Made by a program: the position numbers and the translations under genes
The notes under the pieces: generated by a model
Told to the model about the DNA's origin: nothing
Databases searched by the model: none
What the model saw: only the letters and a program-made list of their open reading frames with translations
Part shown: one piece after another, positions 1,163 to 29,215 of the stretch
Position numbering within the stretch: position 1 is the first letter of the stretch
Layout: each line of letters begins with the position of its first letter
Source of the DNA: a virus
IMG/VR virus record: IMGVR_UViG_3300030102_002005
Coordinates: 1 to 41,693 of that record
DNA length: 41,693 bases
Strand: one strand, 5' to 3'

Positions 1163-1783
1163 ATGTCACAAAGAGCTATGAAATATCTAAATGATAACCG
1201 TATCATATATCGTCGGTATTCACCTGACAGACCTACTAAAGAGTATGACTGGGGTTGGTACTATGCTGACGGTACTTATGGGTACTATAGTCTGTTTCGT
1301 AGTAATGCGAAAATTACTAGCTATAAATCTTTAAAATGGCATTTACTTACATTATGGTATTTAAATCCTCAGTTAACACTAGAAAAGTTTATAGAACTAG
1401 CTAAAGTTATATCTTATAAACCAAACGGATTTGTTACATTTAACGTAAATGAATGGCAACTAACTGATATGGTTAAAGATATATTTAATGAAGATCTCGA
1501 ACGTCCACCTAATAATAGATTACGTAAAATAGTATTTAAAGATGGAACAGGTCTTGATACTTCAGAAAAACTAAGTATTGTAGGTAGTATAATAGGAAGA
1601 AAGCGTATTAAACAAGAAGATATATATGATGCTATGTTACATATAAATGAACAAGGTGAAAATATTACTATATCTAAACTAGCTAAAGCTTTAAAATGTA
1701 CACCAAGAACAATACACAGAAACATGGGTGAAGAACTCAAAAAAGAAAAGGACAAACTAAATATTGACAATGAAAAAATATAA
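1163..1783 (+). CDS. HTH DNA-binding protein, possible phage regulator
   Basis: 206 residues. The N-terminal two thirds are not recognised: they open with a Trp/Tyr-rich part (EYDWGWYYADGTYGYYSLF) and continue with a helical part. The C-terminus, about residues 167..190, reads ITISKLAKALKCTPRTIHRNM, a classic helix-turn-helix in which 'SKLAKALKCTPRTIHR' gives both helices. This suggests a DNA-binding regulator or replication-initiation accessory. It lies directly upstream of, and overlaps by 14 bases, the sigma-factor gene, so the two are probably co-translated and may act together in switching transcription. ATG 1163 is chosen; ATG 1178 (Met6) is also possible. The exact role is not shown by sequence. 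Confidence 0.7.
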   Translation: MSQRAMKYLNDNRIIYRRYSPDRPTKEYDWGWYYADGTYGYYSLFRSNAKITSYKSLKWHLLTLWYLNPQLTLEKFIELAKVISYKPNGFVTFNVNEWQLTDMVKDIFNEDLERPPNNRLRKIVFKDGTGLDTSEKLSIVGSIIGRKRIKQEDIYDAMLHINEQGENITISKLAKALKCTPRTIHRNMGEELKKEKDKLNIDNEKI

Positions 1784-10677: not shown

Positions 10678-11271
10678 TTACCTAACTTTTCTTCTGTTTC
10701 TTCTACTAGCTTGAAAATGCTCAATAATAGGATCAGAGTAAGGATAAATTTTTTTCATAGTATCAAATATAAACGTATACTCTGGCGGTATATTCATAAC
10801 ACTTAAACCTTTAGCTTTCATTTCTTCAATAGCTATTGGCAATACACTTTGTTCAGCTAACACTTTTATATTAGTGCTACTACATTTTGATATCCATAAA
10901 TCACAAAGTTGTTTTGATCTTTCGTTATTAGCAAAGTATATAGTACCAGATAAACACTCTGGTTGTTTTCTATGAGAAAACTCTTGATATCTAACACCTA
11001 CATCTTCTTTAATACTATAAAATAATTCTGGTTTACTTCTTACAATAGCATCTGAATCAACGTAAACTATAGAATAATCAGGATATTTATCTAACATATC
11101 TTTTATAACTCTTGGTTTCATCTTAGTATTAGACTCCCAATTACCTAAATTTTTTACACCTACTATATCATGATCTAGATTTAATTCTTCTAACGATGCT
11201 TTTAGTTTTGCAGCTTCTATAGCATATGAAGTATTAAGCGTGTAATAACCTATAAATTTTACTTTATTCAT
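10678..11271 (-). CDS. Nucleotide-sugar glycosyltransferase, GT-A fold
   Basis: 197 residues. A Rossmann-like start (KVKFIGYYTLNTSYAIEAAKL), then SIVYVDSDAIV with the metal-binding D-x-D (Asp72, Asp74), SGTIYFAN and LAEQSVLPIAI (acceptor-side motif with Gln141), and a late His in PIIEHFQASR (His185). This is the pattern of GT8/DUF-type glycosyltransferases that use NDP-sugars and Mn2+. It is small and may be trimmed. ATG overlaps the stop of the giant virion protein (ATGA 11271..11268), so it is translated late with virion proteins; it may glycosylate a virion or cell-surface component. After its TAA the same frame stays open for 15 more codons (see findings). Confidence 0.8.
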   Translation of the reverse strand: MNKVKFIGYYTLNTSYAIEAAKLKASLEELNLDHDIVGVKNLGNWESNTKMKPRVIKDMLDKYPDYSIVYVDSDAIVRSKPELFYSIKEDVGVRYQEFSHRKQPECLSGTIYFANNERSKQLCDLWISKCSSTNIKVLAEQSVLPIAIEEMKAKGLSVMNIPPEYTFIFDTMKKIYPYSDPIIEHFQASRRNRRKVR

Positions 11272-11369
11272 TTAATAAAAGGATTATTTTGCTTTTTCTT
11301 TTCTCTTTTAGCTTTTACAAAAGGATTACCTGAATCAGATGAATTACCTCTACCTTTCTTAAATGGATT
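11268..11369 (-). repeat. Three NPFxK motifs at 14-residue period
   Basis: The last 33 residues of the giant protein carry NPFKK (3149), NPFVK (3163) and NPFIK (3177, the C-terminus), each exactly 14 residues apart and separated by Gly/Ser or Lys-rich linkers. It is a degenerate protein-level repeat; the linkers are not conserved. Confidence 0.7.
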
Positions 11370-14300
11370 AGTATTTTTATTTTTATCTTTTTCATCAGGC
11401 ATTATTTGCCATTTTGGCCAACCTAACAACATGGCCATGCTTTGCCACCAATCAGCTTCTTCTGATAAAGCAGCTTGAACGTTTTCTATTTTTAATAACA
11501 TTCTATCAAGAGGGATATTAGTAGTAGCAGCAATTACTTTAGCTGCAGCTTTATAAGCATTGTTATCTATACTAAATCCTTTATCTATCATTTCTTGTCT
11601 ACGCTTTTTGCTATCAAAATACCAAGCAGCTTGTCTAAGTCTAGATATTTTAGAACTAATAGGTGGAGAAAATTGAGTTAATTTCCATATTGAATCTACA
11701 TACTCAGGTCTAGATCTATCTGATCTTTCATATAAGTCTAATAAAAAGTTTTTAACTACAGATATAGCAACACCTCCTATACCTAAACCTCTCAATACAG
11801 AATCAGCCATACCATTTGCAGTATCATAAAGTTTTTCTTCTTTCTTTTCATCATCATCACCATCTCCAAATCCAACAGCAAATACAGCTTGTTGAAGAGC
11901 ATTGAATATCATATTCTGTACAAAAGTATAATAAGCTATTTTACTTATATTTTCTTTTGCATCACCTCTACCGTTTATTAAATCTTGATAAGCTCTTTTA
12001 GTTAATCTACCATATTGCATAGGTGTAACTCCAAAAGTTAATGTTAGTCTACCTAAATCACTAGCTTGTTGAGATGATATTTTACTAGGGTCAGATGATT
12101 GCTGAGACTCTTCAGATTTTTCTATAAACTCAGTGTATGCTTTTTCTTCAGCTTCTTTAATTTCAATACCTTGTTTTATTAAATCATTAACTCTATTTCT
12201 ATAAAACGTAGCGCCACCTGAAGCTATTGCAAAACTATCCATCATTTGAGTAGGTAAATAACCTTTAGATAATATATAACTAATAGCAGCTTTTGCTTTG
12301 TTAGTAGCCGTTGCAGCTGCATTGGCTATTTCTGATTCGCTTATATCTAGCTTTTGACCTTTACGTCTATCTCTTAGGTAATTAGAGTTCATTAAAAACA
12401 TAAAGTCTTTCCAATATTGTTTTTGATTTGCAAATGCTTTACCAGCTTGATAAGGATTATTAAAACTCCAATTAATAAAATTAGTAGAAGATATAGCTTG
12501 TAACACGGCTGATCTCATGTTGAAGAACATAATAACACCAGTAGAATTATTTATATAATCTAATACTCTATTGCTTAATCTACTCCCAGATGCAAGTCTA
12601 TTTTTACCTGACTTCATTCTAGTCAATATATTTTCCATAGCTTCTCTATACTTAGGACCATATATAGTTTCTAACTTGTTTAAGTTTTTCTCAGAAAATA
12701 TAAGATCAGCATTTTCTTGCCACTCTTTTAAAGCTTCAGCTCTGTACAAAGTGTTTAATCCATTAAGTAAATCTGTGGTTATAGTACCACCAAGCCAATC
12801 TCTACCTGGCTGAGGATATTCATTATTTTTATTTATAACTAATAATTGCTCAGCAAAAGTTTGTAGTGTAGGATTTGATTCTATAAAATCATTTAACTCT
12901 TTTAAATCTGCCTTAGAAAGACCAGGTATATCATAACCCATAGCTGTCCACACGTAAACTCTTACAGCTTGTTCATTTGTAAATCCAGTTTCATTTGTTT
13001 TTCTAAGTTCTGCTGGTACTTGTAATGTTTTCTTTAATGCTTTAAAATCATCCATTAAATTAATACGTGCAGTACTAATATCATGTTTAGCTCTTGCATA
13101 TGGATCTATTAAATGCTTTTTAAACCAAGCCATTTGAGAATCTCCTAGCTTGCCTTTTGTAAGTAATGGATATATTAATCCCATAAAGTCTTCAGCTCCA
13201 TAAGGTATCCAGAATTTAAATTTACCTTTATTAGATCCAATTGTTTTAGCTTTAGCAGCTGAATATTCTTTAAATGATTTTACTCCTGTAGTTTGTTCTA
13301 TAATATTATTGAAGTCTTCGTCTACATTTTCACTAAACTTCATTTTAGCTTGTTGCACTTCTGACTTAACATCTATTTGAGCTAACGCATCTTTAACGGC
13401 ATTTACATTTCCTATAGCGTCATCAGCAAAATAAAAGTCATTATATCCTTCTGCTGCTTTATTTATTATCCATTCTGCTTTAGCAGCACCTGTTGAATTT
13501 CCTAAACCAGTAATGTTAGCTAAAGGTATGTTTAAACCTTGTGATTTTAAAAACTCATGTATAGGTACTTGAGCTTCTGGTGCTCTTGCTGTTAATACAA
13601 AAACATCTTCTGTACCTCTAGCGTCTCTGATTTTTTCAGCAATACTAAACAGAGGTCCTCTTCCACCATCTCTAACGGTATTAAAATCAGTAAAGTCAAA
13701 TGTATATCCTTCACTAAGTAGTTTCTCACCCTCAGCTGCAAATTCCTCAGCATTAAGTTCAATAGTTTCATTTCCTTTTTTAGCAAATACTATGTTATTA
13801 CTTGTAGCTAGTGTATCGTCAAAATCAAATACTCTAATTTTTCTTACTGGGGCATTAGGATCTCTTGCTATATTTAAAGCATTATCAACAGTAGCTGCAT
13901 AACCTACTACCTCAGCTAGATTATCACTAGCTTTCATGGTAATTACATTATTGCTTAATACTTTTTTATTTACATTATTAGCAGCTATCATTTGCTCTGA
14001 TAGTTTAACAGCATCATCAACCTCTTTTACTGGACCATTAATATCTAAATCAAATAATCCATGCATTGGTCCTCCAATAGTATATTTATTTATCCATCTA
14101 GTTATAGGTGAATCACCTATTTTATAACCAAAAGGCATACGCGACTGAAACAACGTACCAAAATTACTATTAAAGTCTACATGTATAACACCTACTGTGT
14201 AATTCTCTTGTAATTTAGCTAAATCTATTTCAGCATTATTATGGAATATTTTATCTGCTATAGCTAAATTAACAACTAAACCAGGTATACCATGTTCATA

Positions 14301-17300
14301 TTCAAATTGTTTTTTACCATTAATGTTTAGTTGAGTAGTAGGAGGATTTAAAGGTAAGTATCTTAATCTAGCACCAGCTCTAATTGGACCTTTCATATTA
14401 GCTCCAAAACCAGCTACTAACATTGCTAAGTTCTCATTGTTACCTACGTTGTCATTAACCAAGTTGCTAGCTGATTCATACACGTCTACTACAAAGTTAA
14501 ATGCTCTGTCAGAATCTTTCTTTCTTCTGCTAAGCTCTAGTTCACTCATAGTATTGTTAACCATATCTTTAGTAGTAGCTTGCGTAGTTCTACGTTGAGA
14601 ATTAACAACTGCTTTAGTCTTGTCTTTATACGTAAACTCTACTTGCTCTATATTAAAACCAAAAATTGGATGTTTAGTATTTTTAGTTTTTACAGCTACT
14701 ATTGGGTTTTCTGTAGTAGAAAAAACAGGTGCTATAAATTGATCTATATAAGCCTGCGAATGACCACCTGATCCTTCATTAAAGAACGTCATTAATCTTG
14801 TAGGATTATTACTACCATCCTCTAGACCTCCTTTATAGTGCCAAAAATTAGCAGCTAATTCTAGTGGATTAGTATAATTTTTCTTCATATCTGCAGCTAG
14901 TAGCTTTACAAATCCTCTTTGACTATCTACTTTGTTTCTAAATAAATCAGTTACATTACCTACGCCAAAGAAATCTGCTATACTTTGAGCTTCATTATCA
15001 GTTAATACTTCATTAATAAATTCTTCGACGTTTACGTCTACAGCTTCATATTTATTTATTAATCTACCATATGGAGCAAGTATCTTATTAAGATCATTTA
15101 CTATTTGAGTTATAGCTTTTTTAGTTAAATTAGGATAAACACCTTCAACTACTGCTCTTATCTGTGGCTTTCTTATCTTAACATCATTACTTATTCCATC
15201 AACGCTAACCATATTTTCTAAGCCACTTATTAATTCTTCATTTATATTTTCATTTAAAGTACCTGAAAACTTAGTGTTTATACCTGTGCCTATTGCTGTA
15301 GCAAAGTTTTGTAGCATTTCTTTAGCTGCGGCATCTTTAGCTATATTATTTAAGTTTTCTGTTGGAAAAGCTTTATCTATCACATCTACTATGTTGTCAT
15401 TCATAGCTTGCATTGTAACATCAAAACCAAATTGTTTTGATATATTTTTAGCTAGCGCATCTTTTCTTCCACGTTTTTCAAAAAACTCTATAAACTCTTG
15501 CTCAGTTGGATTTAATCTAGAATATAAATTAGGACCTGCATTTGGATTAGTATATACTAAATCACCACTTCCTTCATATTGTTTTATCTTTGCTGGGCTT
15601 AAATTACTTGCTTCTAGCTTGGTTAAAGTTTTTTGCTTAGAAAGTCTTTCCATAGCCACAAGATCAGCTATAGACATATTTTTCATTATAGTTGGTCTAA
15701 TGGCTCTTAAATAGCTTTTATACGCGTCTCCAGTACCCATAGACTTTTTAATTTCAGTAAACAAAAAGCTATCATAAGCATTTGCTAATTCTTGTCTAAC
15801 ATTTTTATATATATTATTAAGATCAGTTAATGCTTGGGCATCATTAGGATTTTCTTTTAATCTAGCTTTTACATCATTTAATTTTACTGTTTGACCTTTT
15901 CTTTTACCAGATTTATATGTAAATTCAAATTTAGGAAGTATACCTCCAACAACTCTTTCTCCAGCTTTAACTACAGTATTGTATATTTCACTGCCTGTTT
16001 CTACACCTATACCTTCTCTAAAACTTTCTATTTGTTCATCTAAATTTATTTCAGAGCTCGTGTCTGCTATATCTAACGCTCTAGCCCCTTCTCTTTCTTG
16101 ACCTATTCTTTTAGTACCTACAGGTGCTTGTCCTTTTGTTAAGTCTTTTATTCCAGTGCCTAATTTATTTTTAAGCTGTGAACCTATCCAACCTGCTAAA
16201 TCATTATTAACTTGAGGATTAAACGTTCTTATGTGCATCATTAAAGGTCTTACAGCTGCTCCAACCGCGTCTGGATTATTACGTGCTATAGTAAGTAAAT
16301 CTTTGCTATATAACTCAAATATTTTACCTAACGTTGTTAAGCCTTCTTCGGTATCTAAAAATGTCTGCCATTCAGATCTACTTATTGGAGCACCTTTACT
16401 ATCTAATGCATACTTATTATATATTTTTAAAATTTCTTCTTCTCTGTTTTTTCTTCTTCCTGTCTTTTCTTCAGCGGTTTCTGCTATATTAGACGATGCT
16501 TTTTCTACTAGATTATTTCTTGCTTCTTGAGTTGCTTTTCTTTTAGCCTTTACCTTGCGTGAAGCTTCTAAAGCTTTTGATTGTTTAGCTGCTTCAATTA
16601 CATCACTGTTTATTTGACCTGTAGATATAGCTTTACCTAAACCAATTAAAAAAGCTACAGCATCTGTCTGACCTTTAAAGTCAAATTGCATTTCACCTTT
16701 AGTAGCCGTGCTAACACCATCGCTAGCTCCACGACCAAACAACGCAGCAAACCTAGGATCAAGCGGCACGTTGTTATTACCAACTTCTTCTAAAAAATTC
16801 ATTACAAGCTCATCTGCCATTTGCGATGCTTGTCTATCTCTTACTAATATTCTAGTTAATACATCACTACCACCTTCAACTGTACTTAAATAATCTACAA
16901 TAGCTTCTGCTAATGGTGCAAAATCTTGTGAGTTTGTACCTAATAATTTAGTAAATATAGCATGGCCAATTTCATGAGTACCTACTTGAAGTTTATTATT
17001 TTTTACAGCATTATCTACTACTACTAATGAATAATCTTTAGTTACTTCTTTACCGTCTATTATTACTGGGCTAAAGTTTAAACCATTATTACCATTTCTT
17101 ATACCTTCTTTAGCTAGTTTTATTTTTTCTACTTGACTTTCTATAAATTCTTCACTTTGACCTGCATTAGTCAAATCACTTCTTACTTCGTCTATTATAT
17201 TGTCAATATACTTATATGAGTCTTCTTTACTTTGTACTCTACCTAATGTAATGTTTAAGTTAGCTTGTTCATTTATTTTAGACTGTAACTCGTAATTAGC

Positions 17301-20300
17301 GTTTACTCTATCTTCAATGTATAAATCTTCAGCTATAGCTTCAACTTCATCTATATTAGGTTGAAAGTCGTTGCTTTTGTTTCCATCACTTCTAATCTTT
17401 TGTTTAGCACGTTGTACATAATCGTCATATGCTTTTGTATCGTTCTTTTTTAATAAGGTAAAGTCATTACCAAATGCGTTTGAATTTTTAAATATATTAG
17501 AATTATATTCATTAGAATCAAATTGTTCTTTAATTCTTCTAAGTTGCTGTTGTTTAACGCCTGGTGCTAATTTTGTAGAGTTAATTATTTCTTCAGCTTG
17601 AGATCTTAATTGCTCACTTCTAATCATTGATAATGTCAACCCGTTGTTAGCGTCTTTAGATAAAGTATTATTTATAAAGTCAAACTTTTCTTTAGCCATT
17701 ACATTAAGCTTATCCTTAACTTCTCCTATTTCTTTATCATAAGCTTCTATAACTCCTGACTCAGCTCCTTCAACACGTAATTGATCTCGTTGCATTTGCA
17801 ATGATTGTAAATCTGCTGATAAACCTCTGAACTCAGCCATTTTACCATAGTCAGTAAATCTTTGTGCAACCATACCCATTATCATAGGAGAAGTAGACAT
17901 AGCAAAACCAAACATACCACCGACAAACATAGCATGATCTACATTTTCTGATATTGGTCTTCCATCAATTAAGTTTTGACTAATTTGAGTTAAGCCTTCA
18001 CCAATACCTTCTGATACTGTTTCTAGTGGTATACGTGGTGCTTGAGCCATAAAATAATTTTTCATAGCCACTCTATAATCAACGACAGATCTTTGACCCA
18101 TTCGCTTTATTAAATCACCACCTCTTCTTAATATAGGTACAGTTGTTAAAGCTTCAAACACACCTTCAGCAGCACCGTATCCTACAGCAGCCGCAGCATC
18201 TACCCATTCAGCTCTATATTTACCGCTTATCTCTTGTTGATAATCATTACGCATCCAATGATCACCAGCTGCATATGCACCTATAACCCATGGTGCAGCT
18301 GTACCACCACTAGCCATCATTGTTAAAAGTATAGGTATTTGTCTACCTACTTCTGTAGCAACAAAAGTTCCAAAACTACCAGCAAAAGCTGCTCTTCCAC
18401 CCCACTCGTTCTGATGAAAAGATACATCTTTCATTAGATCGTTTCTAACATCATTTTTCCAGTCTTGATATGTAACATTCATTTGTTGAGTTGCTTCTTC
18501 TGCTAAATCCCAAGACTGTTTAAATATATTCATTTCATCAGGCACGTCTAAAGCTTCTAAAGCTTCTCCAGTCCAATAAGTAGGGCTAAGATATTTTTGT
18601 GCTTTACCTGCTAAATATGTAGCTCCAATACCTATATCAGCAAACATAAGACCAAACTCAGTAGTAGCTTTACCCCATACACTATAATCTCTTCTAAGTA
18701 AATCCCAAGCTGTATTTAAATCATTACTTTCATCTGCTAACTTCCAAGACTCGTCTCTTCTTTGAGCTAAAGTTTGATAATGAGCTTTAGATCCTTCTAC
18801 TGCATTGTTATAATCATCAAATAAAGATTTACTTACTATTTTACCATTTTTCAACTTAACAGGTGTTTCACCAGGTCCAGGCGTAGGAAAATCTTCTGAA
18901 CCAAAATAAATTTGTTCAAAATAATTTATCATCATACCATTTTCTGTTGCATTAAATTTAGATATTTCTATTTCATTTAATGATGATAATTGAGCTGATC
19001 TTACTATATTAGCATCTTTTTTAAGTATGTCAAAACCTATTAATTCACCTTTCTTTTCTGTTGAAACTTCACCTAAATAAGCATCCCAGTTACTATCTAA
19101 GATTTTAGCTTTCATTTCTTCATATCTAATTCTAGCTACATAAGTCTTTATATCATCTACAGATGGTGCTGGTTGACCAGCTTTATTTCTTGCTTGACTT
19201 AATGTTTGTGTTGCTTGTTGCCATATTAAAGTTCCAGGGCCAGAGTATTGTTGACCTAAATATCTTTCTGCCTCATTAGTGCCAGGTCTTTCTTTCCAAC
19301 CAACGTTAGTTCCACCGGCTAAAGCTTGTTCAATAAATGTATTTTCATCTATTGTTTGATCCATTTCAGGATTTTCTAAATTAAATAAGTTACCAGAAGG
19401 TACAAACTTACCATAAGTTCTTTTATTTCTGGACTGATCAAAATATTCTCCTCTATCATGATCTTCTAAAAACATTTTTATACCTTCTGTAATAGGATCT
19501 TTAGTAATCTTATCAGCTTTCATGGTGCTATACTCTTCTATATTGTCGAGTATGTCGGGTACATTTGGAAAGTATTTACCTGGATAAGTCTCCTCTATTT
19601 TCTCTATCATTATTTGACGAGGAGTTTTAAATAGTTGTTGATTAGGAGTAAACACATTGAAAGTTCCAAGCTCTGTAGTTTTACTCTGGAAACTACCAAA
19701 TTGATCTATATCAAATTGCTGGCTTTCATTTATAGCTATACCACCTTCAGCAGGATTTTCAGAATTAAAAGCAGTAGATGCTATTTTATAATAGTCACTA
19801 CCCATTTGAGATAAATTCTTTTGAGTGGCTAATACATCTAAACCATTTTGATTTATAAAGTTAAATAAAGAAGCTTTAGTAGAATAAAGTGATTCAGAGC
19901 CTTCTAAATGATCACCAACTCTAAAAGTAAGTTCTTTACCGTTTTCAGCTATAACTTTAATTTTATCACCTTGACCTTGTTTAAAACGAGCTGGTTCATA
20001 TACTTTTTCAAAAGTAAAATTAGGATATTGATTAGATAAAAAAGGTACAAGCTCTTCATCAGTATCTGCTTTAGTAAAATAGTAGTCACCAGTTTCTAAA
20101 TCTTGTTCGTCAACAGCTGTTTCTCTGAGTCCCCAACTATGTACACCTGTATTTACTTTAGTAGTTTTACCATCTTTACCTTTTACATTTACAGATATAG
20201 TAGGATTACTTATATTATATTTTTGTACATAACTATCTTCTAATGTTATCTTTTTACTGTTTTCTAAATCTTTCTCGTATTGTCTTTGTAAGTTTTTTAC

Positions 20301-20813
20301 AGCTGCTTGGTATTCTGTGTTTTCTTCATCAAGCTTACCATCTTTAGTAAAACTATATTTTAATTTATTTAAATTATCAGTGTAAGTCTTCTTTATTTTT
20401 TTGTTTCTTTGAGATTCTAATTCCAATGAAGAAAGACCCAAAGATGAAGCCGTAGTTTGTAGTGGTATCTCTGCACCCTCTACATAATCTTCCGGCGCAA
20501 TATTCATGGCTTCTACGGAATTTGCGCCTAACAGCTTTCCCGCTTCTTCGCTGTTAACATCTGGTTCAACAATGTTAGGTATAATTTCTGACATACCTGA
20601 AATGTCTTTGAAAGAAGCAAAATCAGGGCTAGATACTATACCTTGTGTGTCTAAGTATTTGTAAAACTTAAATACATCATCGTCATTTTTAAATGAATTA
20701 GCAAATGAATCTAGCGAAGACATATCAATGCCTAAATCAGATACATTTAAACCATAAGTATTTACAATATCATATGCTTTTTTATAAGCAGGATCTTTAA
20801 TAGTTATGTCCAT
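11268..20813 (-). CDS. Giant 3181-residue virion/ejection protein, protease and HAD
   Basis: One uninterrupted frame. Residues 1..780 are soluble with no recognised domain. About 805..985 contain Gly/Ala-rich hydrophobic stretches (IPILLTMMASGGTAAPWVIG, AAAAVGYGAAEG, HAMFVGGMFGFAM) suited to membrane insertion during DNA ejection. About 990..1230 are charged, coiled-coil-like. HEIGH at 1280..1284, in VGTHEIGHAIF, is a zincin HEXXH site with Glu-rich helices after it. A full HAD motif set follows: DFDDT (Asp2330, Asp2332), VLTAR (Thr2408) and FADD (Asp2464, Asp2465). The C-terminal third is helical, with a hydrophobic patch, acidic GDGDDDE, SPPISSKI near 3054, and three NPFxK motifs at the end. 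It resembles in size and place the large internal proteins of podoviruses. No RNA polymerase DxDGD motif was found. Confidence 0.85.
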   Translation of the reverse strand: MDITIKDPAYKKAYDIVNTYGLNVSDLGIDMSSLDSFANSFKNDDDVFKFYKYLDTQGIVSSPDFASFKDISGMSEIIPNIVEPDVNSEEAGKLLGANSVEAMNIAPEDYVEGAEIPLQTTASSLGLSSLELESQRNKKIKKTYTDNLNKLKYSFTKDGKLDEENTEYQAAVKNLQRQYEKDLENSKKITLEDSYVQKYNISNPTISVNVKGKDGKTTKVNTGVHSWGLRETAVDEQDLETGDYYFTKADTDEELVPFLSNQYPNFTFEKVYEPARFKQGQGDKIKVIAENGKELTFRVGDHLEGSESLYSTKASLFNFINQNGLDVLATQKNLSQMGSDYYKIASTAFNSENPAEGGIAINESQQFDIDQFGSFQSKTTELGTFNVFTPNQQLFKTPRQIMIEKIEETYPGKYFPNVPDILDNIEEYSTMKADKITKDPITEGIKMFLEDHDRGEYFDQSRNKRTYGKFVPSGNLFNLENPEMDQTIDENTFIEQALAGGTNVGWKERPGTNEAERYLGQQYSGPGTLIWQQATQTLSQARNKAGQPAPSVDDIKTYVARIRYEEMKAKILDSNWDAYLGEVSTEKKGELIGFDILKKDANIVRSAQLSSLNEIEISKFNATENGMMINYFEQIYFGSEDFPTPGPGETPVKLKNGKIVSKSLFDDYNNAVEGSKAHYQTLAQRRDESWKLADESNDLNTAWDLLRRDYSVWGKATTEFGLMFADIGIGATYLAGKAQKYLSPTYWTGEALEALDVPDEMNIFKQSWDLAEEATQQMNVTYQDWKNDVRNDLMKDVSFHQNEWGGRAAFAGSFGTFVATEVGRQIPILLTMMASGGTAAPWVIGAYAAGDHWMRNDYQQEISGKYRAEWVDAAAAVGYGAAEGVFEALTTVPILRRGGDLIKRMGQRSVVDYRVAMKNYFMAQAPRIPLETVSEGIGEGLTQISQNLIDGRPISENVDHAMFVGGMFGFAMSTSPMIMGMVAQRFTDYGKMAEFRGLSADLQSLQMQRDQLRVEGAESGVIEAYDKEIGEVKDKLNVMAKEKFDFINNTLSKDANNGLTLSMIRSEQLRSQAEEIINSTKLAPGVKQQQLRRIKEQFDSNEYNSNIFKNSNAFGNDFTLLKKNDTKAYDDYVQRAKQKIRSDGNKSNDFQPNIDEVEAIAEDLYIEDRVNANYELQSKINEQANLNITLGRVQSKEDSYKYIDNIIDEVRSDLTNAGQSEEFIESQVEKIKLAKEGIRNGNNGLNFSPVIIDGKEVTKDYSLVVVDNAVKNNKLQVGTHEIGHAIFTKLLGTNSQDFAPLAEAIVDYLSTVEGGSDVLTRILVRDRQASQMADELVMNFLEEVGNNNVPLDPRFAALFGRGASDGVSTATKGEMQFDFKGQTDAVAFLIGLGKAISTGQINSDVIEAAKQSKALEASRKVKAKRKATQEARNNLVEKASSNIAETAEEKTGRRKNREEEILKIYNKYALDSKGAPISRSEWQTFLDTEEGLTTLGKIFELYSKDLLTIARNNPDAVGAAVRPLMMHIRTFNPQVNNDLAGWIGSQLKNKLGTGIKDLTKGQAPVGTKRIGQEREGARALDIADTSSEINLDEQIESFREGIGVETGSEIYNTVVKAGERVVGGILPKFEFTYKSGKRKGQTVKLNDVKARLKENPNDAQALTDLNNIYKNVRQELANAYDSFLFTEIKKSMGTGDAYKSYLRAIRPTIMKNMSIADLVAMERLSKQKTLTKLEASNLSPAKIKQYEGSGDLVYTNPNAGPNLYSRLNPTEQEFIEFFEKRGRKDALAKNISKQFGFDVTMQAMNDNIVDVIDKAFPTENLNNIAKDAAAKEMLQNFATAIGTGINTKFSGTLNENINEELISGLENMVSVDGISNDVKIRKPQIRAVVEGVYPNLTKKAITQIVNDLNKILAPYGRLINKYEAVDVNVEEFINEVLTDNEAQSIADFFGVGNVTDLFRNKVDSQRGFVKLLAADMKKNYTNPLELAANFWHYKGGLEDGSNNPTRLMTFFNEGSGGHSQAYIDQFIAPVFSTTENPIVAVKTKNTKHPIFGFNIEQVEFTYKDKTKAVVNSQRRTTQATTKDMVNNTMSELELSRRKKDSDRAFNFVVDVYESASNLVNDNVGNNENLAMLVAGFGANMKGPIRAGARLRYLPLNPPTTQLNINGKKQFEYEHGIPGLVVNLAIADKIFHNNAEIDLAKLQENYTVGVIHVDFNSNFGTLFQSRMPFGYKIGDSPITRWINKYTIGGPMHGLFDLDINGPVKEVDDAVKLSEQMIAANNVNKKVLSNNVITMKASDNLAEVVGYAATVDNALNIARDPNAPVRKIRVFDFDDTLATSNNIVFAKKGNETIELNAEEFAAEGEKLLSEGYTFDFTDFNTVRDGGRGPLFSIAEKIRDARGTEDVFVLTARAPEAQVPIHEFLKSQGLNIPLANITGLGNSTGAAKAEWIINKAAEGYNDFYFADDAIGNVNAVKDALAQIDVKSEVQQAKMKFSENVDEDFNNIIEQTTGVKSFKEYSAAKAKTIGSNKGKFKFWIPYGAEDFMGLIYPLLTKGKLGDSQMAWFKKHLIDPYARAKHDISTARINLMDDFKALKKTLQVPAELRKTNETGFTNEQAVRVYVWTAMGYDIPGLSKADLKELNDFIESNPTLQTFAEQLLVINKNNEYPQPGRDWLGGTITTDLLNGLNTLYRAEALKEWQENADLIFSEKNLNKLETIYGPKYREAMENILTRMKSGKNRLASGSRLSNRVLDYINNSTGVIMFFNMRSAVLQAISSTNFINWSFNNPYQAGKAFANQKQYWKDFMFLMNSNYLRDRRKGQKLDISESEIANAAATATNKAKAAISYILSKGYLPTQMMDSFAIASGGATFYRNRVNDLIKQGIEIKEAEEKAYTEFIEKSEESQQSSDPSKISSQQASDLGRLTLTFGVTPMQYGRLTKRAYQDLINGRGDAKENISKIAYYTFVQNMIFNALQQAVFAVGFGDGDDDEKKEEKLYDTANGMADSVLRGLGIGGVAISVVKNFLLDLYERSDRSRPEYVDSIWKLTQFSPPISSKISRLRQAAWYFDSKKRRQEMIDKGFSIDNNAYKAAAKVIAATTNIPLDRMLLKIENVQAALSEEADWWQSMAMLLGWPKWQIMPDEKDKNKNTNPFKKGRGNSSDSGNPFVKAKREKKKQNNPFIK

Positions 20814-20824
20814 ATTTTATTTTA

Positions 20825-22705
20825 TTATAGTGTTGGTAAGTTATAACCTGTCATGTTTTTTCTTCCTTCTGAATTGCCTAGTAAATATTGATCATTATCA
20901 TTTAACCCATACATGTACATTATGTTTCGCTCTGCTTCTGGGTTTAATTGCCCATTGTTATCTACACTAAAGTCTCCTGTATTAATTAAACTAGTATATC
21001 CAGTTACATCTCCTTTGTTTAAGTTAGGAAAATTATATATAACACTAGCACTAGGATTACCTCCAGCTGATTGCATTAAGTCAAACAATGATTCTTCTCC
21101 AGCTTTTTTAGGTTGACCTTGAGCGTTATAGTTTTTAAGTTCTTCACCAGAGAAAATATGATTAGGATTTTTTACACTTTTATTTGACTTAGTTAATATG
21201 TTTGGATTTTTAGTTCTTATTTGTGCCGCTATTTGTGTGCTTATAGGAGTATTAGAATTAAAAGTATGATTACTAAAGTTTTTCTTGACGTTAGTAAAAC
21301 CTCCAATAGAATTAGCAGCATGTGTCTTAGCATTTGCTGTGTAAGCTCCAGTAGATGTTCTACCTACTCTTTCTTTTTCTTGTTCACCTAGTACAGTCAA
21401 CGTATCCTTAGACTTCATATCTCCTATAAAACTTGCCTGAGCTTCTACACAAGCTTCTATTAAGTTTTTTCTTGTTCTATTGTATTCATCTTCACTAATC
21501 TCCATGTCACCAGAACCTACAGCTATTAAATCACCGTATCTTTCTTGAAGTTTTTTATACTCAGGATCTGCGGCTATATCCGCTTTTTCTTGTTGACTTA
21601 AACCCGCTGGAGAATTATCGTATTTTTCCGTTAGTGCCAACAACTCTTTATTTAATCCTTGTAAATGCGCTTTAGTAGGAGCAGATCCAAATGTTTGAAA
21701 GTCACCATCTTTAAACATGTCGTCAGTTATATAACCAGCATTTGCTAATTGAGTAAACTGTTTATCAAAATCAGTTCTATTAGTTTGGTTTTCTAACCAT
21801 TTTCTAGCTTCTGGGTTGTTTAATAGATTAGCTTTAGCATCTATAGGATCTTCATACTTAACTATCTTCATAGTATTTGTAGCACCATCCCACTCTTGTT
21901 TTACTTTAGGTGGTGAAGATAAAACACCTCCTGGCGCGTACCAACTTTTAACATACTTATCATCGGTGTTTACATACACATTCATTAGTGAATCATCTTC
22001 ACCTATTGTTCTAGATTCTAAAGTTTCACCTGTCTGTTTAAAAGCTTTGTATTCAGCATCATAATCAGTGGTACCGGTTTGCTCAACGTTGTTTTCATCC
22101 ATGTATTTATACTTTATTACAGTCTTATCTCCACTCCTATCATATTCTATATCTGTTAAATTACCTGAAGACATTACAGAGCTTAATGTTATTTCATTTT
22201 TATACTGATTCATAGCACTTCTAGTAATTTGTCCTACGCTACTATTCATTTCGTTAGCTTTAACATGCTTAGATATAACTTGTGAATTGTTAGTTACCGA
22301 CACAGCTAAAGCTGCTTGAGCATCTAAGTCTTGTCTTGATGCGGTAACAGCTGCGTTGTATTTACCTTGAGCTTCTTTTTTCTCTTCACCACTAAGTCTT
22401 GGATTATTAGCAGCTACTTCTAATTTATATAAATCATCTGCTACAGTACCTATATGCTTAGTCATGCTTTCTTTCATTATAGCATTAGCATCTTTTATTT
22501 GATCTGTATATAATTTAACGTATTCAGATCTATTCTTCTGTGCGTTTTCCATAACTTTATTTGTTTGGACACGCATTTCTTTATTATAAGATGCTATTCT
22601 ACTTAAAGCGCTCATGCTAGCTTGCGTCGCTTGTTGTACTGTTGCTACTCCAGCCTGCGTTAGAGCAGATTGTTGTGGCGTTAATTTTACTTGTCTTTGA
22701 CTCAT
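20825..22705 (-). CDS. Internal/ejection-type virion protein, 626 residues
   Basis: Gln/Ala/Ser-rich helical N-terminus (about 1..160: LTPQQSALTQAGVATVQQATQ...), then a mixed domain with short beta-like stretches (KTVIKYKYMDENNVEQTG) and a low-complexity, Asn-rich C-terminus. No cysteine cluster, membrane helix or enzyme motif. It lies between a T7 gp14-like protein and the giant protein, the position of the second internal core protein in T7-like virions (gp15 relative to gp14 and gp16). I infer a periplasm-spanning ejection protein. The stop is 11 bases before the giant gene's start. No family recognised by sequence. Confidence 0.65.
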   Translation of the reverse strand: MSQRQVKLTPQQSALTQAGVATVQQATQASMSALSRIASYNKEMRVQTNKVMENAQKNRSEYVKLYTDQIKDANAIMKESMTKHIGTVADDLYKLEVAANNPRLSGEEKKEAQGKYNAAVTASRQDLDAQAALAVSVTNNSQVISKHVKANEMNSSVGQITRSAMNQYKNEITLSSVMSSGNLTDIEYDRSGDKTVIKYKYMDENNVEQTGTTDYDAEYKAFKQTGETLESRTIGEDDSLMNVYVNTDDKYVKSWYAPGGVLSSPPKVKQEWDGATNTMKIVKYEDPIDAKANLLNNPEARKWLENQTNRTDFDKQFTQLANAGYITDDMFKDGDFQTFGSAPTKAHLQGLNKELLALTEKYDNSPAGLSQQEKADIAADPEYKKLQERYGDLIAVGSGDMEISEDEYNRTRKNLIEACVEAQASFIGDMKSKDTLTVLGEQEKERVGRTSTGAYTANAKTHAANSIGGFTNVKKNFSNHTFNSNTPISTQIAAQIRTKNPNILTKSNKSVKNPNHIFSGEELKNYNAQGQPKKAGEESLFDLMQSAGGNPSASVIYNFPNLNKGDVTGYTSLINTGDFSVDNNGQLNPEAERNIMYMYGLNDNDQYLLGNSEGRKNMTGYNLPTL

Positions 22706-22715
22706 GATCTATTTG

Positions 22716-23414
22716 TTATGCGAATGCATTGGTTAATGCTCCATCAGGTCCCATACCTGCGGTAGCAGCACTAGTTGTACCTTGAATACCCGCCATGAGT
22801 GAAGCTGCAGCAGCATCTTCAAGGCCTAACTGACGAGATCTAAGAGCATCTAATTCACCATATGCTCTATCTATACCAGCTTGATCTCTAGCTTCTTGCA
22901 TTTGTAGTTTTATATTTGCGGCTTGCGTGCTACCTGCAATAGCAGATTGTTCTATAGATAGTAATTGTTGTTGAACTTGTTGCTCTCCTTGTGCTTTTAG
23001 TTTTTCATTTTGAGCTTCTTGACTCTCTATATCTGCAGCAACGTTTTGTTTACTTTGCATAGCAGCTCTTGCTAATGCTGTAGCTCCACCAGCGCTTGAT
23101 CCAGTAGCGGCTAATGTATCTAAAGTATTAGCTAAAGCAATATCAGTTTGTTCCATTTTAATTTCAGCAGCTTGTGTAGCAACCGATAAATTAGCCATAG
23201 GATTACTAACCATAGATTTCATTGCTCTAATATCATCTCCAGGGTCATATACAGCTTCGTCAAGATCTTGTCTTGCTGCTAATGCATCATCAACAACACC
23301 CTGTTGAGCTAATATATCGCTCTCCATTTTATTTGCTTTGTTTTTTTGTACTGCTGCGTTAATACCTCCTATTACTAATGGAGTTGCTACCACAGCTATT
23401 GCTGCCATACTCAT
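22716..23414 (-). CDS. T7 gp14-like internal virion protein
   Basis: 232 residues: a short hydrophobic N-terminal helix (AAIAVVATPLVIGGINAA), then long Ala/Gln-rich helices (LAATGSSAGGATALARAAMQ, EKLKAQGEQQVQQQLLSIEQ) and a Gly/Ala tail. This composition is typical of the smallest internal core protein of T7-like podoviruses (gp14), which inserts in the outer membrane during infection. Starts at ATG 23414, one base after the cupin gene's stop; Met3 is an alternative. Function is inferred from composition and from the order gp14-like, middle-sized, giant protein. Confidence 0.65.
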   Translation of the reverse strand: MSMAAIAVVATPLVIGGINAAVQKNKANKMESDILAQQGVVDDALAARQDLDEAVYDPGDDIRAMKSMVSNPMANLSVATQAAEIKMEQTDIALANTLDTLAATGSSAGGATALARAAMQSKQNVAADIESQEAQNEKLKAQGEQQVQQQLLSIEQSAIAGSTQAANIKLQMQEARDQAGIDRAYGELDALRSRQLGLEDAAAASLMAGIQGTTSAATAGMGPDGALTNAFA

Positions 23415-23915: not shown

Positions 23916-25622
23916 TTAAGACGATTTAACAAACGTACTACCAACTGACCATATTTCTTTTAACCCACCTACATCTGTAGAACTATCTGTTTGTATAGTC
24001 ACAGTGGCAAAGTAAGCTTTTATACCACTCATTTGTGCACCAAACAGTATTCCATCAGGTCTTTGTGCTGAGTTATTTATTAAGTTAGCTACGTATAAAT
24101 TTTCTTTTCTATCAAAACCAGCTCTTTTAGGATAACCTTCAGAGTCAGTATAATAACCTTCATCATAACTTTTTACTAATGTAGTAGTATCTTGATACGC
24201 ATTTGAATTTGCGTAAGTTGGAGGATTTTGTAATGGTATATCAGGATCTATTTGCTGAAAGTCAGAAACAAATGAACCTATTTCATAACCATTATCACCT
24301 TCATAATTAACTGTTTGAAAAACTTTTTTAAGAGAAGGACCATCATTAATTACAAACTGTACTGAAGATTTAGTAAAAACATTATAGAAAGTGCCTCTAT
24401 TATTATTACTTACTTCATCATGTTGTTTCCATAATTTACCATTAAAAGTAGTATAATACGTATCTTTTAAACTAAAAATATTACTAGGATTATAACTATA
24501 TCTACTAGGCCAACCTCTAACTGATTCGTCAAAAGCTGTTGTTTCATAATCATTTGATTCAGTAAAAGTAACTGGAGCAATTTGCATTGATATAACATAT
24601 TGTTTATCAAATATATCCCAACCTCCAACTATTTTATCTTTAACAGGTTTAGTAAATATTAAGTCATCAGGAACTATTGGACTAACAGTTTTATCTGTAA
24701 ACGTCAATGCTTTAGAAAATGTAACTTCGTCTGTCGCGTAGTCTACATCTATAACATAAGCATTTGTAATTAGTCCATTTAAAGTAACATTCATACCTAT
24801 TTCTATATCGTCAACTGGTGCATCTAATGTGACTACGTTTGTTGTTAATGGTGAAGCGGTGTATGAAGTACTATTATTTGCTGTATATATTTTAAAATTA
24901 GAGGATATTTTTTTAAGTTCATCTCTAAAATAATCTGACATACCATATTCAGATATTTCAGTTAATCCATCACGTGATAATCTCATTATAGATCCTCTAA
25001 AAGCATCTGCAAAGTATCTTCTAAAACCATATCTAGCAAAACTTTCTGGATTATCTGATATTCCAAAGTCACCTACGTAAGGTACAACTTGACCTATTAC
25101 TAAGTTGTTAGTTGTTACAGCTTGTCCTTGACCTTCTGCTGAATATATAGCATCTTTATCTATTAAAGCTCTACTTACTTTATTTTGTTGTAGTATAGTT
25201 AAGTCATTGTCACTAGCGTAAGTTCTTTGTATTGGACCATATGATGGGTCTAATGATTTAGTAATGTCTTCGCCTACAGAAAACACATTTGTTTGATTAA
25301 ATCCTGTTCTAGTGTTGTAAACACCTGAGTATATTATGCTATTAAACCTATGTTGTTGATTAATATTTTCTTCATTAGCATAAGCTCTAACGCCAAAATC
25401 AACACTAGTATTATTAAATCCACCTAATATTCTAGATTCTTCAATCATCCATTGTAAAACATTAAAAGTTGGATCTATATTAACATTGTTAGGATAATTA
25501 GGGTAACCAGGTGGATCCCATACTAAACCAGGCCACGCCGCAACATTAGTAGTTACATCGGTGTCTACAATTCTTTTATTCCAGAACGCGTTAAAATATT
25601 TTATTTTTACTATACTTGACAT
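23916..25622 (-). CDS. 568-residue tail/structural protein
   Basis: A beta-rich, Asn/Tyr/Thr-rich protein with a central IMRLSRDGLTEISEYGMSDYF segment and repeated aromatic beta strands, lacking membrane or enzyme motifs. It starts in the stop of the 1197-residue tail protein (TGATG at 25624..25620), so the pair should be translated together and probably assemble together. A segment near residues 250..330 (NSTSYTASPLTTNVVTLDAP...) looks like an inserted Ig-like or beta-sandwich domain. By position it may be a hub partner, nozzle or fibre-anchor protein of the tail. Confidence 0.65.
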   Translation of the reverse strand: MSSIVKIKYFNAFWNKRIVDTDVTTNVAAWPGLVWDPPGYPNYPNNVNIDPTFNVLQWMIEESRILGGFNNTSVDFGVRAYANEENINQQHRFNSIIYSGVYNTRTGFNQTNVFSVGEDITKSLDPSYGPIQRTYASDNDLTILQQNKVSRALIDKDAIYSAEGQGQAVTTNNLVIGQVVPYVGDFGISDNPESFARYGFRRYFADAFRGSIMRLSRDGLTEISEYGMSDYFRDELKKISSNFKIYTANNSTSYTASPLTTNVVTLDAPVDDIEIGMNVTLNGLITNAYVIDVDYATDEVTFSKALTFTDKTVSPIVPDDLIFTKPVKDKIVGGWDIFDKQYVISMQIAPVTFTESNDYETTAFDESVRGWPSRYSYNPSNIFSLKDTYYTTFNGKLWKQHDEVSNNNRGTFYNVFTKSSVQFVINDGPSLKKVFQTVNYEGDNGYEIGSFVSDFQQIDPDIPLQNPPTYANSNAYQDTTTLVKSYDEGYYTDSEGYPKRAGFDRKENLYVANLINNSAQRPDGILFGAQMSGIKAYFATVTIQTDSSTDVGGLKEIWSVGSTFVKSS

Positions 25623-28600
25623 CAGTTTGCAAAATAATTAAGTTGTAAATCTTCATCGACTACTTCGTATCTTAAACCACTACCGTTAGCATCTACTAAA
25701 TCGTAAGATATATGCCATCTTGTTTGGCAAAATCCCAATGATTGACCAGAGCCACTTGACAAATCAACAGGCGTGGCGGTTATAGGATTATTAATAAACA
25801 ATCCTAAACCAGTTACGCTATCATCCGTTGGGTCTACTTGACCTACACTAGGTCCATTTGGATTATTTATTCTAGCTTGACCTAATTCAATAGTAACTCC
25901 TGAACCATTATATGCAGTAGGAACATTTGTGCCTCCAACGTAACTTATTGTTAAGTTTTCAACTTTTAATTCTGAATATTTATTATCATTAAGAGCATTT
26001 GTTGAACTACCATTACTTGTAGAAGCTCCACTACCCGTATAATCAGTATCCGAGGTTAATTGACTTCCAGTTGTAAAACTACCTACATAAATTTGATTAC
26101 CATAAATTGGCCCTTCGTCGAACTCAAAAAGTCCCCATTTCCATTTAACACCATCTTGTCCAGCTGCAATAACACTAATAGGAGATAGATTAGACATAGC
26201 TCCAGTAAAACTCAAGTCAACAGTTTGAAAAAGCACTACACATCTAACTGTAAATGTATAATTTCTTATTTGACTATTTTGACCAAAGTAATTATTATAG
26301 TTTGAAACATCATTAGTTAACCTTATGTAAAATGTACCATTATTATTATCTACTAATTCAAATATATCTACTGGATCACCTAAGGCATCTTCTACACTAA
26401 TTAAATTAAAGCTAGCATTAGGATCATTTATTTCAACACCATCATTGTTTACTGTTGTCATGTCAATTGTAACTCCGCTTCCAGGTGGTTCATTTTCAAA
26501 AAATGCAAATTGAGGATCTGAAAGACCTACAGGAGTTGTAGTATCTCCATCAATAATACTTTCGTTTAACACTGATATTAAACCAGAAGAAGTAGTCTCA
26601 TAAAATATATCTAAATTAGATTCAAAAGGTTGTGTTTCTCCTATTGCTAAATATGGGATAAATCCAGTTTCTTCTGCTACACCTACAGCTTCAGTTGTAG
26701 CTAATATACCTATTAGTGGATTATTGTTGGAATTAAACACGACACCTGGAGGACCAAAAGTCCAGGTTGAATTAACACTAATATCAACAGTAGTTCCTGT
26801 ATTTAAAACTAAAGTTGATCCTCCAAAAACAGCATAATAAGCTTTTACATAAAAATTTTCTGAGGCATCAATTTTTTGTGTGCCGCCATCAATTACGTTT
26901 ACAACAGAAGAACCAGGTTGTATGTCTTCATCAAAAGTAGAAAAAGTAAAAGTAGTTGTACCAGCAGGCTCAGTAGCAGGCCCAGTTTGCTTTAAAGATT
27001 TTTTAGCTATAGAAATACCAAGATTACTTAACTCTGATATTTGAGATACTTTTTGATCTACAGGTCCGCCAAAAAACTGAACACTATTATGATATAATGC
27101 ATCCTTTTCATTTACAACTCTCAAATTTAAGCTTTCAGCAGATCTATATATAGTTTGACTAGGTCCTACTTGAGATATATCTTTAGGAATTTTATTTATA
27201 TTGTCAGAATACAAGCTTATAGTCGCTTCCGTGTCACTAGAACTGCCATCTTTATTAATAGCTCCGTTAACTATACCTGGTAGATAAGCATTATAATATT
27301 CTTGTTCTTGTTGTTTTATTACAATTTTAAAACTATACCAACCTAATGGATTTGTTATGCTATATAAACCTGGATAACCAGGTGTATTGATACTTGATGG
27401 TATTTGTGATTTAAAAATAACTTCAGCTAAATCACCTGGCCAACTTGCGTTTGAAGGCGTAGTAGTATCTAACGGTACGCTGCTTTCGTTTCTGTAAGCT
27501 TTATATAATGTAGAACCTTTAAAAGAGTCTGATAAACCAGCAACGACACCATCGTCTACTTCAGAAAGTATAACATCTGAAGACCTTCCATATCTATCAC
27601 TTAGCACTATACCAACTTGATAAGTTCTATTATCTTTTAACGTGTGGTTTTGATATTCAATAGCTATTATATTACTTCCTTGACTATCTTTCTCATTTAC
27701 ATTAGTATTATAGTTTAATGTTGTAGGGCTAGTGTGTTTGTCGTAAAAATTAGAATATAATATTCTATTACCTACAGCTGTCAATGTTTTAGCTCTTATT
27801 GGTGATTTATCATAAACTCTAACAACTTCTGAATCAGGTAAAGTTCTTGTTGGTTTTCTCGATTGATATATATATTGTAATTTATCTATGTTTGTACTAA
27901 CTAAAGTACTATTGTCTATAGTATCTAAAACTTTTATTGATATTTCGCTAGCATCTTTACTTATTATGTCTACTTCTTTTATTTTTAATCCACTAACAGC
28001 ATCTGCCCAGCTAGAAAAACCAGAAGGGGCAGGTAATATTAAACCTACTTCATCTATTTTGTTTCTCATTAATCTATTTTCTGTACTAGAAAAAGCCCAA
28101 TATTCGTCATTATCACCATCAATAAAATCACCTGTTGACGGATCGTATGTTTCATTTAAAAAATAACCATCGTTTCTTGGGACAAAAGCTATTTGAGTAA
28201 ATGGCGCTATAAGCGAATATTCATCATCATCAAATTTAAATCTATAACTAAATCTTATAAATCTTTCTTTTAAATACTCTGGATCACCAGGCCAATTCTC
28301 ATCATAATCAGGATTAGGATTAGAAGTACCATCTGGCTCAGGTGGTAAATATTCATCAGATCTATTCTTCATTGTAGATATACCTGTTACAAAAACTTCA
28401 AATTGACCTCCAGAACCAGGAACACCTAGTCTTACAATAAGATTTAAAACATCACCATTGGTATAACCCGTGCCTGGATTTGTTATTTCTATTCCACTTA
28501 TTTCACCAGTTACTGGAGATATACTTGTTATAGTTAGTATCAAACCTTCTCCTGTTCCACCAACTAAACCGTTTGCTGGTATTTGATATGGTAAATTTAA

Positions 28601-29215
28601 ACCTTGATAATTTTGCCCACCGTTTATGATAGAAACACTCTGAACTTCTTCTTTATATAAGTCTATTGGTTCAAATGGATAATACTTTGTAACAGATATA
28701 TGGTCTTCAGTAGTGTAATAATTTGGATTAGCTAAAGCTGTAGTTATGTTTATTTTACGAGGTTGATTTCTATTGTCAGTAAAAAATAAAAGATCTTCAA
28801 TAATATCTACACCACCTATTGGATGTGTTTTTGAAAAGTTTAAAAAATTACCAGATACTAATTGATTAACCGTGTTAGTATCAGCATTATAAGAATATAT
28901 GTAATGAGCTGAATTAGATGGAGCAAAGTTAGATAAATAATCTACAGATGCATCAGTATAGTTAGTTATAAAAAAATATATTAAATCTTTTTGTTCGTCT
29001 ACATAATAACCTATTATTTCTAAATGTTTATCAGTTAATCCAAAATCAGATATTTGTATGTTACCTTTTATATTTTGAACTGTACCAACATCATCACCTT
29101 CAGATCTACTAACCGTAATATTTACAGCATCTCTATATTCTCCTTTAGGAATTAACCTTGCGTCTATGTCTTTATTCATTTTAGACGCCATGAAAGTGTT
29201 TTTAGTTTCAGCCAT
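25622..29215 (-). CDS. 1197-residue tail hub/stabilisation protein
   Basis: The N-terminus has KMNKDIDARLIPKGEYRDA and SRSEGDDVGTVQNIKGN, which I recognise as the hallmark opening of large tail 'stabilisation' or hub proteins of crAss-like and many marine podoviruses. The following strands (IIGYYVDEQKDLIYFF, HYIYSYNADTNTVNQLV) read as beta-propeller blades. At about 190..280 lies a pair of GxGY-type repeats (IINGGQNYQG, ITNPGTGYTNGD), an inserted beta domain. The C-terminal half contains Gly/Ser/Thr-rich beta-sandwich-like segments, possibly receptor- or fibre-binding. Largest tail gene of the block; starts two bases after the connector gene. Confidence 0.78.
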   Translation of the reverse strand: MAETKNTFMASKMNKDIDARLIPKGEYRDAVNITVSRSEGDDVGTVQNIKGNIQISDFGLTDKHLEIIGYYVDEQKDLIYFFITNYTDASVDYLSNFAPSNSAHYIYSYNADTNTVNQLVSGNFLNFSKTHPIGGVDIIEDLLFFTDNRNQPRKINITTALANPNYYTTEDHISVTKYYPFEPIDLYKEEVQSVSIINGGQNYQGLNLPYQIPANGLVGGTGEGLILTITSISPVTGEISGIEITNPGTGYTNGDVLNLIVRLGVPGSGGQFEVFVTGISTMKNRSDEYLPPEPDGTSNPNPDYDENWPGDPEYLKERFIRFSYRFKFDDDEYSLIAPFTQIAFVPRNDGYFLNETYDPSTGDFIDGDNDEYWAFSSTENRLMRNKIDEVGLILPAPSGFSSWADAVSGLKIKEVDIISKDASEISIKVLDTIDNSTLVSTNIDKLQYIYQSRKPTRTLPDSEVVRVYDKSPIRAKTLTAVGNRILYSNFYDKHTSPTTLNYNTNVNEKDSQGSNIIAIEYQNHTLKDNRTYQVGIVLSDRYGRSSDVILSEVDDGVVAGLSDSFKGSTLYKAYRNESSVPLDTTTPSNASWPGDLAEVIFKSQIPSSINTPGYPGLYSITNPLGWYSFKIVIKQQEQEYYNAYLPGIVNGAINKDGSSSDTEATISLYSDNINKIPKDISQVGPSQTIYRSAESLNLRVVNEKDALYHNSVQFFGGPVDQKVSQISELSNLGISIAKKSLKQTGPATEPAGTTTFTFSTFDEDIQPGSSVVNVIDGGTQKIDASENFYVKAYYAVFGGSTLVLNTGTTVDISVNSTWTFGPPGVVFNSNNNPLIGILATTEAVGVAEETGFIPYLAIGETQPFESNLDIFYETTSSGLISVLNESIIDGDTTTPVGLSDPQFAFFENEPPGSGVTIDMTTVNNDGVEINDPNASFNLISVEDALGDPVDIFELVDNNNGTFYIRLTNDVSNYNNYFGQNSQIRNYTFTVRCVVLFQTVDLSFTGAMSNLSPISVIAAGQDGVKWKWGLFEFDEGPIYGNQIYVGSFTTGSQLTSDTDYTGSGASTSNGSSTNALNDNKYSELKVENLTISYVGGTNVPTAYNGSGVTIELGQARINNPNGPSVGQVDPTDDSVTGLGLFINNPITATPVDLSSGSGQSLGFCQTRWHISYDLVDANGSGLRYEVVDEDLQLNYFAN

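Follow-up and report, generated by a model that had tools for sequence, protein, structure and literature searches.

A giant phage protein combining a zincin site with a predicted Pnkp-like phosphatase domain, and its probable delivery from the virion

The locus analysed here raises the question of what a phage could do with one polypeptide of 3181 residues in which a protease motif, HEXXH, is combined with the motif set of a HAD phosphatase. The corresponding gene lies on IMG/VR record IMGVR_UViG_3300030102_002005, a stretch of 41,693 bases that was analysed in its entirety (hereafter the window); the record is probably incomplete, relatives reaching 55-77 kb, and its source virus is a relative of crAss phage, known here from environmental DNA alone. 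A preliminary description of the window had regarded the gene product as a virion protein which may be injected together with the DNA. From the present analysis it is likely that the product is a phage polyvalent ejection protein, composed of an N-terminal virion module, an obligatory zincin, variable segments, a HAD domain resembling that of the T4 polynucleotide kinase/phosphatase (Pnkp) and a helical C-terminus. The single gene was found at exactly the coordinates given before, 11268-20813, and is located on the minus strand, which had not been specified. Its features are as follows (window positions, strand, description).

11268..20813 (-): coding sequence of the probable ejection/polyvalent protein, 3181 amino acids (aa), ATG start, no interruption
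17814..19376 (-): putative N-terminal ejection region, residues ~480-1000, Gly/Ala-rich with moderate hydrophobic stretches; profile homology to phi38:1/phi40:1 gp101, elemo gp18 and phi46:3 gp120
16584..17381 (-): predicted zincin-type metallopeptidase domain, residues 1145-1410
16962..16976 (-): zinc-binding motif HEIGH, residues 1280-1284
16809..16811 (-): third zinc ligand E1335 (gluzincin type), invariant in 96/96 giants
14034..14459 (-): residues 2119-2260, the third conserved stretch, with >90% conservation over 54 rows; contains E2173-H2174 (relatives: 'EHxxPA')
13317..13850 (-): predicted HAD phosphatase domain, residues 2322-2499, T4 Pnkp 3'-phosphatase-like; hosts inserted domains in relatives
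11397..13316 (-): predicted all-helical C-terminal domain and best-conserved part, residues 2500-3139; fold like the C-terminal parts of viral 'large polyvalent proteins'

Enzyme sites of the giant protein and their conservation

The C-terminal domain is carried by at least 542 confirmed viral contig stretches and by 0 of 50,697 phage records, and relatives were obtained by scans of viral contigs covering 30 loci and then 80 loci drawn from these stretches. Nearly all of them encode one giant of ~2100-3900 aa at the same genomic place, in which the C-terminal 640 residues are ~40-70% identical to those of the window (94% in the nearest relative), the remainder being highly variable.

The zincin site HEIGH, previously reported at residues 1280-1284, is positioned exactly there, and its conservation across relatives makes it a genuine site to which E1335 can now be added as a ligand. 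H1280, E1281, H1284 and E1335 are invariant in all 96 giants having HEXXH (of 97 giants), at 10-20% identity and with the Glu situated ~50 residues past HEXXH; in an alignment of 80 rows with a mean column identity of 11%, these H, E, H and E columns are the only invariant ones (80/80). The 97th giant (L092:1718-12358) has HEXXXH (AHEILGHG) in place of HEXXH at residue 1400, a variant already on record among polyvalent proteins (PMC5512222). In a structural model of residues 1030-1810 (predicted local distance difference test score, pLDDT, 81; predicted template-modelling score, pTM, 0.47), HEXXH is placed on helix 248-262 and the Glu on helix 304-316 (numbering of the model), these being successive conserved helices after three short strands. 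This modelled layout matches the description of polyvalent zincins and would assign the domain to the zincin metallopeptidases.

The HAD set of the preliminary description (Asp2330/Asp2332, Thr2408, Asp2464/2465) was recovered in full and extended by one residue, the site of the window giant consisting of DFDDT 2330-2334 (D2330/D2332), T2408, K2445 and D2464/D2465. Of 26-27 relatives, 25-26 retain D2330, D2332, T2334, T2408, R2410, K2445, D2464 and D2465, and the HAD residues are invariant in a 52-row alignment, the rows of which were chosen for having motif I. Same-composition shuffles produced HEXXH in 0.9% and an ordered four-motif HAD string in 0.8% of cases; a chance origin of both motifs is ruled out by their conservation, which is stronger evidence than the shuffles.

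An AlphaFold model of residues 2300-3139 (pLDDT 78.5) predicts HAD motifs I-IV (DxDxT, T/S, K, DD) on a Rossmann-like core, as is characteristic of the superfamily. A whole-model Foldseek comparison with the PDB was swamped by long helices; the structural result for this domain comes from VIA-align, where the top three chains are all T4 Pnkp (Z 10.5, 9.9 and 9.2; root-mean-square deviation, rmsd, 2.4-3.2 over 120-123 residues). The best of these aligns 120 residues at rmsd 2.4, rows 4-6 are within 1 Z of the third, and other HAD phosphatases stand below T4 Pnkp. At the sequence level, of 52 HAD domains taken in isolation, 48 are matched by PHROG_415 'polynucleotide kinase' (best E 1.4e-8; E 0.0099 for that of the window), and Pfam scored HAD in 14, PNK3P in 2 and DUF2608 in 44 of the 52. 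In both fold and sequence the domain is thus closest to the T4 Pnkp phosphatase. The predicted Pnkp-like fold is consistent with action on DNA or RNA ends, in line with the earlier proposal that the HAD part may act on nucleotides or DNA ends.

As judged from the sequences, the zincin is the core of the lineage's giant and the HAD is accessory, because the latter is missing or eroded in a number of giants that all keep the zincin. The HAD region is furthermore where exchangeable domains are found. A P-loop kinase directly follows HAD motif I in 5 of 97 giants (L021, L022, L083, L086 and L107), the one inserted in L083 being matched in Pfam by Zeta_toxin (E 2e-12) and AAA_33 (E 4e-12). At the same position a single giant, L076, holds an ART-PolyVal-like domain (E 0.013, below cut-off), and in six giants a DUF6934-like domain separates the HAD from the C-terminal part (E 4e-4, below cut-off, in the two scanned with a match); an initial reading of the latter as GNAT was rejected, being without Pfam support. 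Judged on a FastTree phylogeny of the C-terminal domain, the kinase and the post-HAD insert each need four changes or more, a scatter close to random. By this tree the inserts have been gained or lost repeatedly.

For the C-terminal domain, comparison of the model with a viral structure library gave, beyond close relatives, giant proteins at E to ~1e-13 and a template-modelling (TM) score of ~0.5. Several of these are named large polyvalent protein-associated or ART-PolyVal, in a library that holds predictions and names, not tested functions. The likeness to viral proteins named large polyvalent is one of fold, no Pfam LPD domain being matched on the window giant. The helical C-terminus was unmatched among PDB structures, a comparison which is hardly a test of a helical part. 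Profile searches with the whole protein against Pfam, PHROGs and the PDB remained at chance level, and matches to eIF-5a and DUF6196, below cut-off, were taken as chance.

Virion association and the proposed route into the cell

With a profile of the pre-zincin part, matches were obtained to phi38:1 gp101 (E 7e-32), elemo gp18 (2e-18), phi46:3 gp120 (1e-12) and the giant of MW202828 (1.5e-7). The gp101 of phi40:1, which is 99.7% identical to that of phi38:1, is annotated as structural 'based on experimental MS/MS proteomics analysis' (MS/MS, tandem mass spectrometry). The window and phi40:1 also have their gene order in common (portal, a gene of scaffold size, major capsid protein (MCP), three genes, muzzle, small genes, a 549-aa gene, giant), the sole departure being one extra 568-aa gene. 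Since phi38:1 gp101 has neither enzyme site, the part common to it and the window giant would be the ejection part. The homology of the N-terminal region to a virion protein seen by MS/MS, in the same gene order, makes injection a well-supported inference: the window giant is probably packed in the virion and injected with the DNA. The virion association proposed in the preliminary description is in this way supported by homology and synteny. Its putative membrane-inserting segments are weakly supported: the hydrophobic stretches (826-846, 961-979 and 3002-3028) are moderate, and hydropathy analysis found no strong transmembrane helix in the window giant. The channel that hydrophobic parts may build is hypothetical.

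Other genes of the window that bear on this question are given below.

20825..22705 (-): 626-aa protein, corresponding in position to phi40:1 gp100 and N4 gp51; probably ejected together with the giant (by synteny)
22716..23414 (-): 232-aa protein, hydrophobic at its N terminus (1-23), corresponding in position to phi40:1 gp99 and N4 gp52; probably ejected together with the giant (by synteny and hydropathy)
25622..29215 (-): crAss-type muzzle protein, 1197 aa; Pfam PF25731 E 2e-9, PHROG virion structural protein E 3.5e-44
1764..2519 (+): sigma-70-like factor; Sigma70_r2 E 9e-5, just under the curated Pfam cut-off

By position and size alone, the giant and the 626-aa and 232-aa proteins most likely form an ejection set resembling gp50-gp51-gp52 of phage N4. 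In the mechanism that we propose, the N-terminal third would be a virion/ejection module common to cultivated flavobacterial podoviruses, and the giant would be packed in the capsid with its two adjoining proteins. It would then exit via portal, tail and muzzle before the DNA, bringing its enzyme domains into the cell. Placed between the ejection and effector parts, the zincin most likely cuts its own polypeptide and would free the effector half; the HAD would most likely dephosphorylate 3' ends of broken nucleic acid and so blunt host nuclease defences. A precedent for such counter-defence, not evidence for it, may be seen in T4, where tRNA cleaved by the anticodon nuclease PrrC is mended by Pnk together with Rnl1 (PMC2610378).

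What zincins do in polyvalent proteins has been an open matter since 2017. In the window lineage the zincin is practically the sole invariant enzyme site and has a defined location, with the ejection part on one side and the effector part on the other; therefore self-cleavage is directly testable. The HAD, with its exchanged inserts, suggests that a repair or counter-defence activity is delivered, which would be present as the DNA enters.

Alternative explanations

Several observations weigh against a delivered polyvalent enzyme. Matches of the zincin and C-terminal profiles in the PDB, Pfam and PHROGs are at chance level only, and no zincin or LPD family of Pfam scored on the window giant. 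The structural matches of the zincin region in VIA-align, of lethal-factor type, are weak (Z 5.1, 158-165 residues, rmsd 4.8-5.3); the lethal-factor fold family is also the HHpred finding for polyvalent zincins (PMC5512222). Neither the HAD-domain profile nor the C-terminal profile matched solved structures significantly, and L019/L029, L104, L067 and, from genome bins, L208 and L210 have either no HAD or an eroded one, with the zincin kept in all. As phi38:1 gp101 is without HEXXH and HAD, the virion location of the enzymatic half would follow from linkage; delivery of the giant is deduced from homology and synteny. An RNA ligase partner (PF09511) was not found in 22 contigs, where a control search was equally silent, so that its absence is not established.

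Three rival explanations were considered with these points in mind. That the giant is a crAss-like or N4-like virion RNA polymerase diverged past recognition would suit its genomic slot and size, which are the same as those of virion polymerases, and the parallel between N4 gp50-gp51-gp52 (3500, 644 and 150 aa) and the window's 3181, 626 and 232 aa. The DxDGD motif of crAss RNA polymerase is nevertheless lacking from the window giant, as had been reported, and among ~97 relatives it turns up in two, as a stray match near residue 670; a Pfam scan of the whole giant gave no T7-type single-subunit polymerase family, the family profiles miss N4 gp50, and the most conserved part is predicted to be all-helical. 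A sigma factor is moreover encoded in the window, with homologues in the contigs of 16 of 22 long relatives, and it would redirect the RNA polymerase of the host, so that none need be carried in the virion. We consider this explanation very improbable. More weight is given to the zincin being a structural or packaging domain, or a peptidase of host proteins, in a giant delivered whole: N4 virion RNA polymerase (vRNAP) has an HExxH domain and is yet packaged unprocessed, the region that bears this domain is needed for encapsidation (PMC5512222), and an invariant zincin alongside a HAD that can be lost fits a core virion role. A purely structural role, however, would not require the general-base Glu, the third ligand and all catalytic residues to be kept at 10-20% identity, and this explanation is regarded as possible but rather doubtful. 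No pointer to cell-wall proteins as a zincin substrate, which the preliminary description had envisaged, was obtained.

It is likewise possible, if somewhat improbable, that the HAD acts on small molecules such as nucleotides, sugar phosphates or second messengers, the inserted kinases then being zeta-type UDP-sugar kinases acting on wall precursors. The L083 insert scores equally as Zeta_toxin and AAA_33, HAD acid phosphatases such as AphA and class C follow in the structural list at Z ~7-8, one relative in BFVD is named UDP-N-acetylglucosamine kinase, and zeta-like kinases are found in polyvalent proteins (PMC5512222). Against this, T4 Pnkp ranks first by structure and has the smallest rmsd of the leading rows, the PHROG 'polynucleotide kinase' is matched by nearly all of the isolated domains, and the cap sits at a position that allows a kinase to be paired with the phosphatase. 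The polyvalent ejection protein thus remains our preferred explanation. Its most specific form, a virion-delivered effector that heals nucleic-acid ends by a Pnkp-type phosphatase (with a kinase in the cap in some relatives), is freed by the zincin and serves as an exchangeable counter-defence platform of a large uncultivated marine crAss-like lineage, is offered tentatively and judged unlikely.

Relation to known systems and further observations

The idea of an injected giant with several enzymes is not novel, the polyvalent class having been described in 2017 (Iyer et al. 2017, PMC5512222). The window giant resembles that class in having several unrelated enzyme domains in one giant chain (at least two, as zincin and HAD sites are both conserved across relatives), a zincin as hub domain, ART-like and zeta-like modules in its relatives, a virion gene neighbourhood and a predicted helical C-terminal fold common to proteins named 'large polyvalent'. 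It differs in its T4 Pnkp-like HAD, which is not found in the main text of PMC5512222, in the use of the HAD as an insertion platform and in the practically universal zincin; these points, and the lineage itself, are new. No published description of this giant was found in the literature searched, which is not proof of absence.

N4 vRNAP gp50 is similar in its ~3500 aa, N-terminal ejection part, internal HExxH domain and large helical C-terminal domain, and in being adjoined by two smaller ejection proteins, gp51 and gp52 (PMC12633501); in contrast, the window giant has a HAD and no RNA polymerase domain, and sequence homology to gp50, gp51 or gp52 was not detected. The gp101 of phi38:1/phi40:1, gp120 of phi46:3 and gp18 of elemo share the homologous N-terminal region and the gene order. 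The zincin of elemo gp18 matches the family profile (E 3.6e-7), although HAD and C-terminal domain are undetectable in it, whereas the phi38:1 and phi46:3 proteins lack both zincin and HAD. With T4 Pnkp the giant has the predicted HAD fold and motif order in common, and in some relatives an inserted kinase partner; it differs in that the HAD is embedded in a probable virion giant, that the window has no kinase, and that the relatives' kinase is inserted after HAD motif I, versus an N-terminal fusion in T4.

TerL, portal and MCP of the window match PHROG packaging and head families and, together with the muzzle, identify a Crassvirales-related podovirus. The nearest named records by TerL are MW202828 (62%) and Flavobacterium elemo phages (Elemovirus, ~45%), with Cellulophaga phages of Pervagoviridae and Pachyviridae also near; these have been put close to Crassvirales by other authors (PMC9855967). 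Contigs that were binned with genomes fall mostly in Bacteroidota.

Some minor observations concern individual loci. The MW202828 giant (L031:741-12320, 3859 aa) has two HEXXH motifs and no HAD, and its record name, 'reticulocyte binding/rhoptry protein', looks misannotated. Upstream of residue 2231 of L067 the first HAD half (DxD, LTAR) is gone, and the second half is left beside an intact C-terminal domain. L022 holds, on the opposite strand downstream of its full giant, a partial second copy of HAD and C-terminal part (L022:19289-22831 (-), 1181 aa) in which HAD motif I is absent and which resembles a silent cassette. The giant is split into at least two open reading frames in L024:8747-17055, L025:2077-12178 and L030:6159-12968, and in L024 and L030 the breaks fall inside or behind the HAD part; an assembly error, a frameshift or an intervening element are all possible. 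The sigma-factor matches in L007, L017, L024, L035 and L111 hold one or two stop codons (TAA, TAG or TGA), for which recoding, decay, start-site choice or sequencing error may account.

In the giant itself, a recurrent helical 'F(D/N)P...(Y/W)...' motif near residue 1531 (window 16210-16230), also present in relatives, resembles sigma region 2; this assignment was dropped, as no Pfam sigma match was obtained in 54 members. E2173-H2174 (window 14292-14297), ~150 residues before the HAD, may belong to another enzyme domain. Finally, a glycosyltransferase-like gene (window 10678-11271 (-), Nucleotid_trans E 5e-5) overlaps the stop codon of the giant by four bases.

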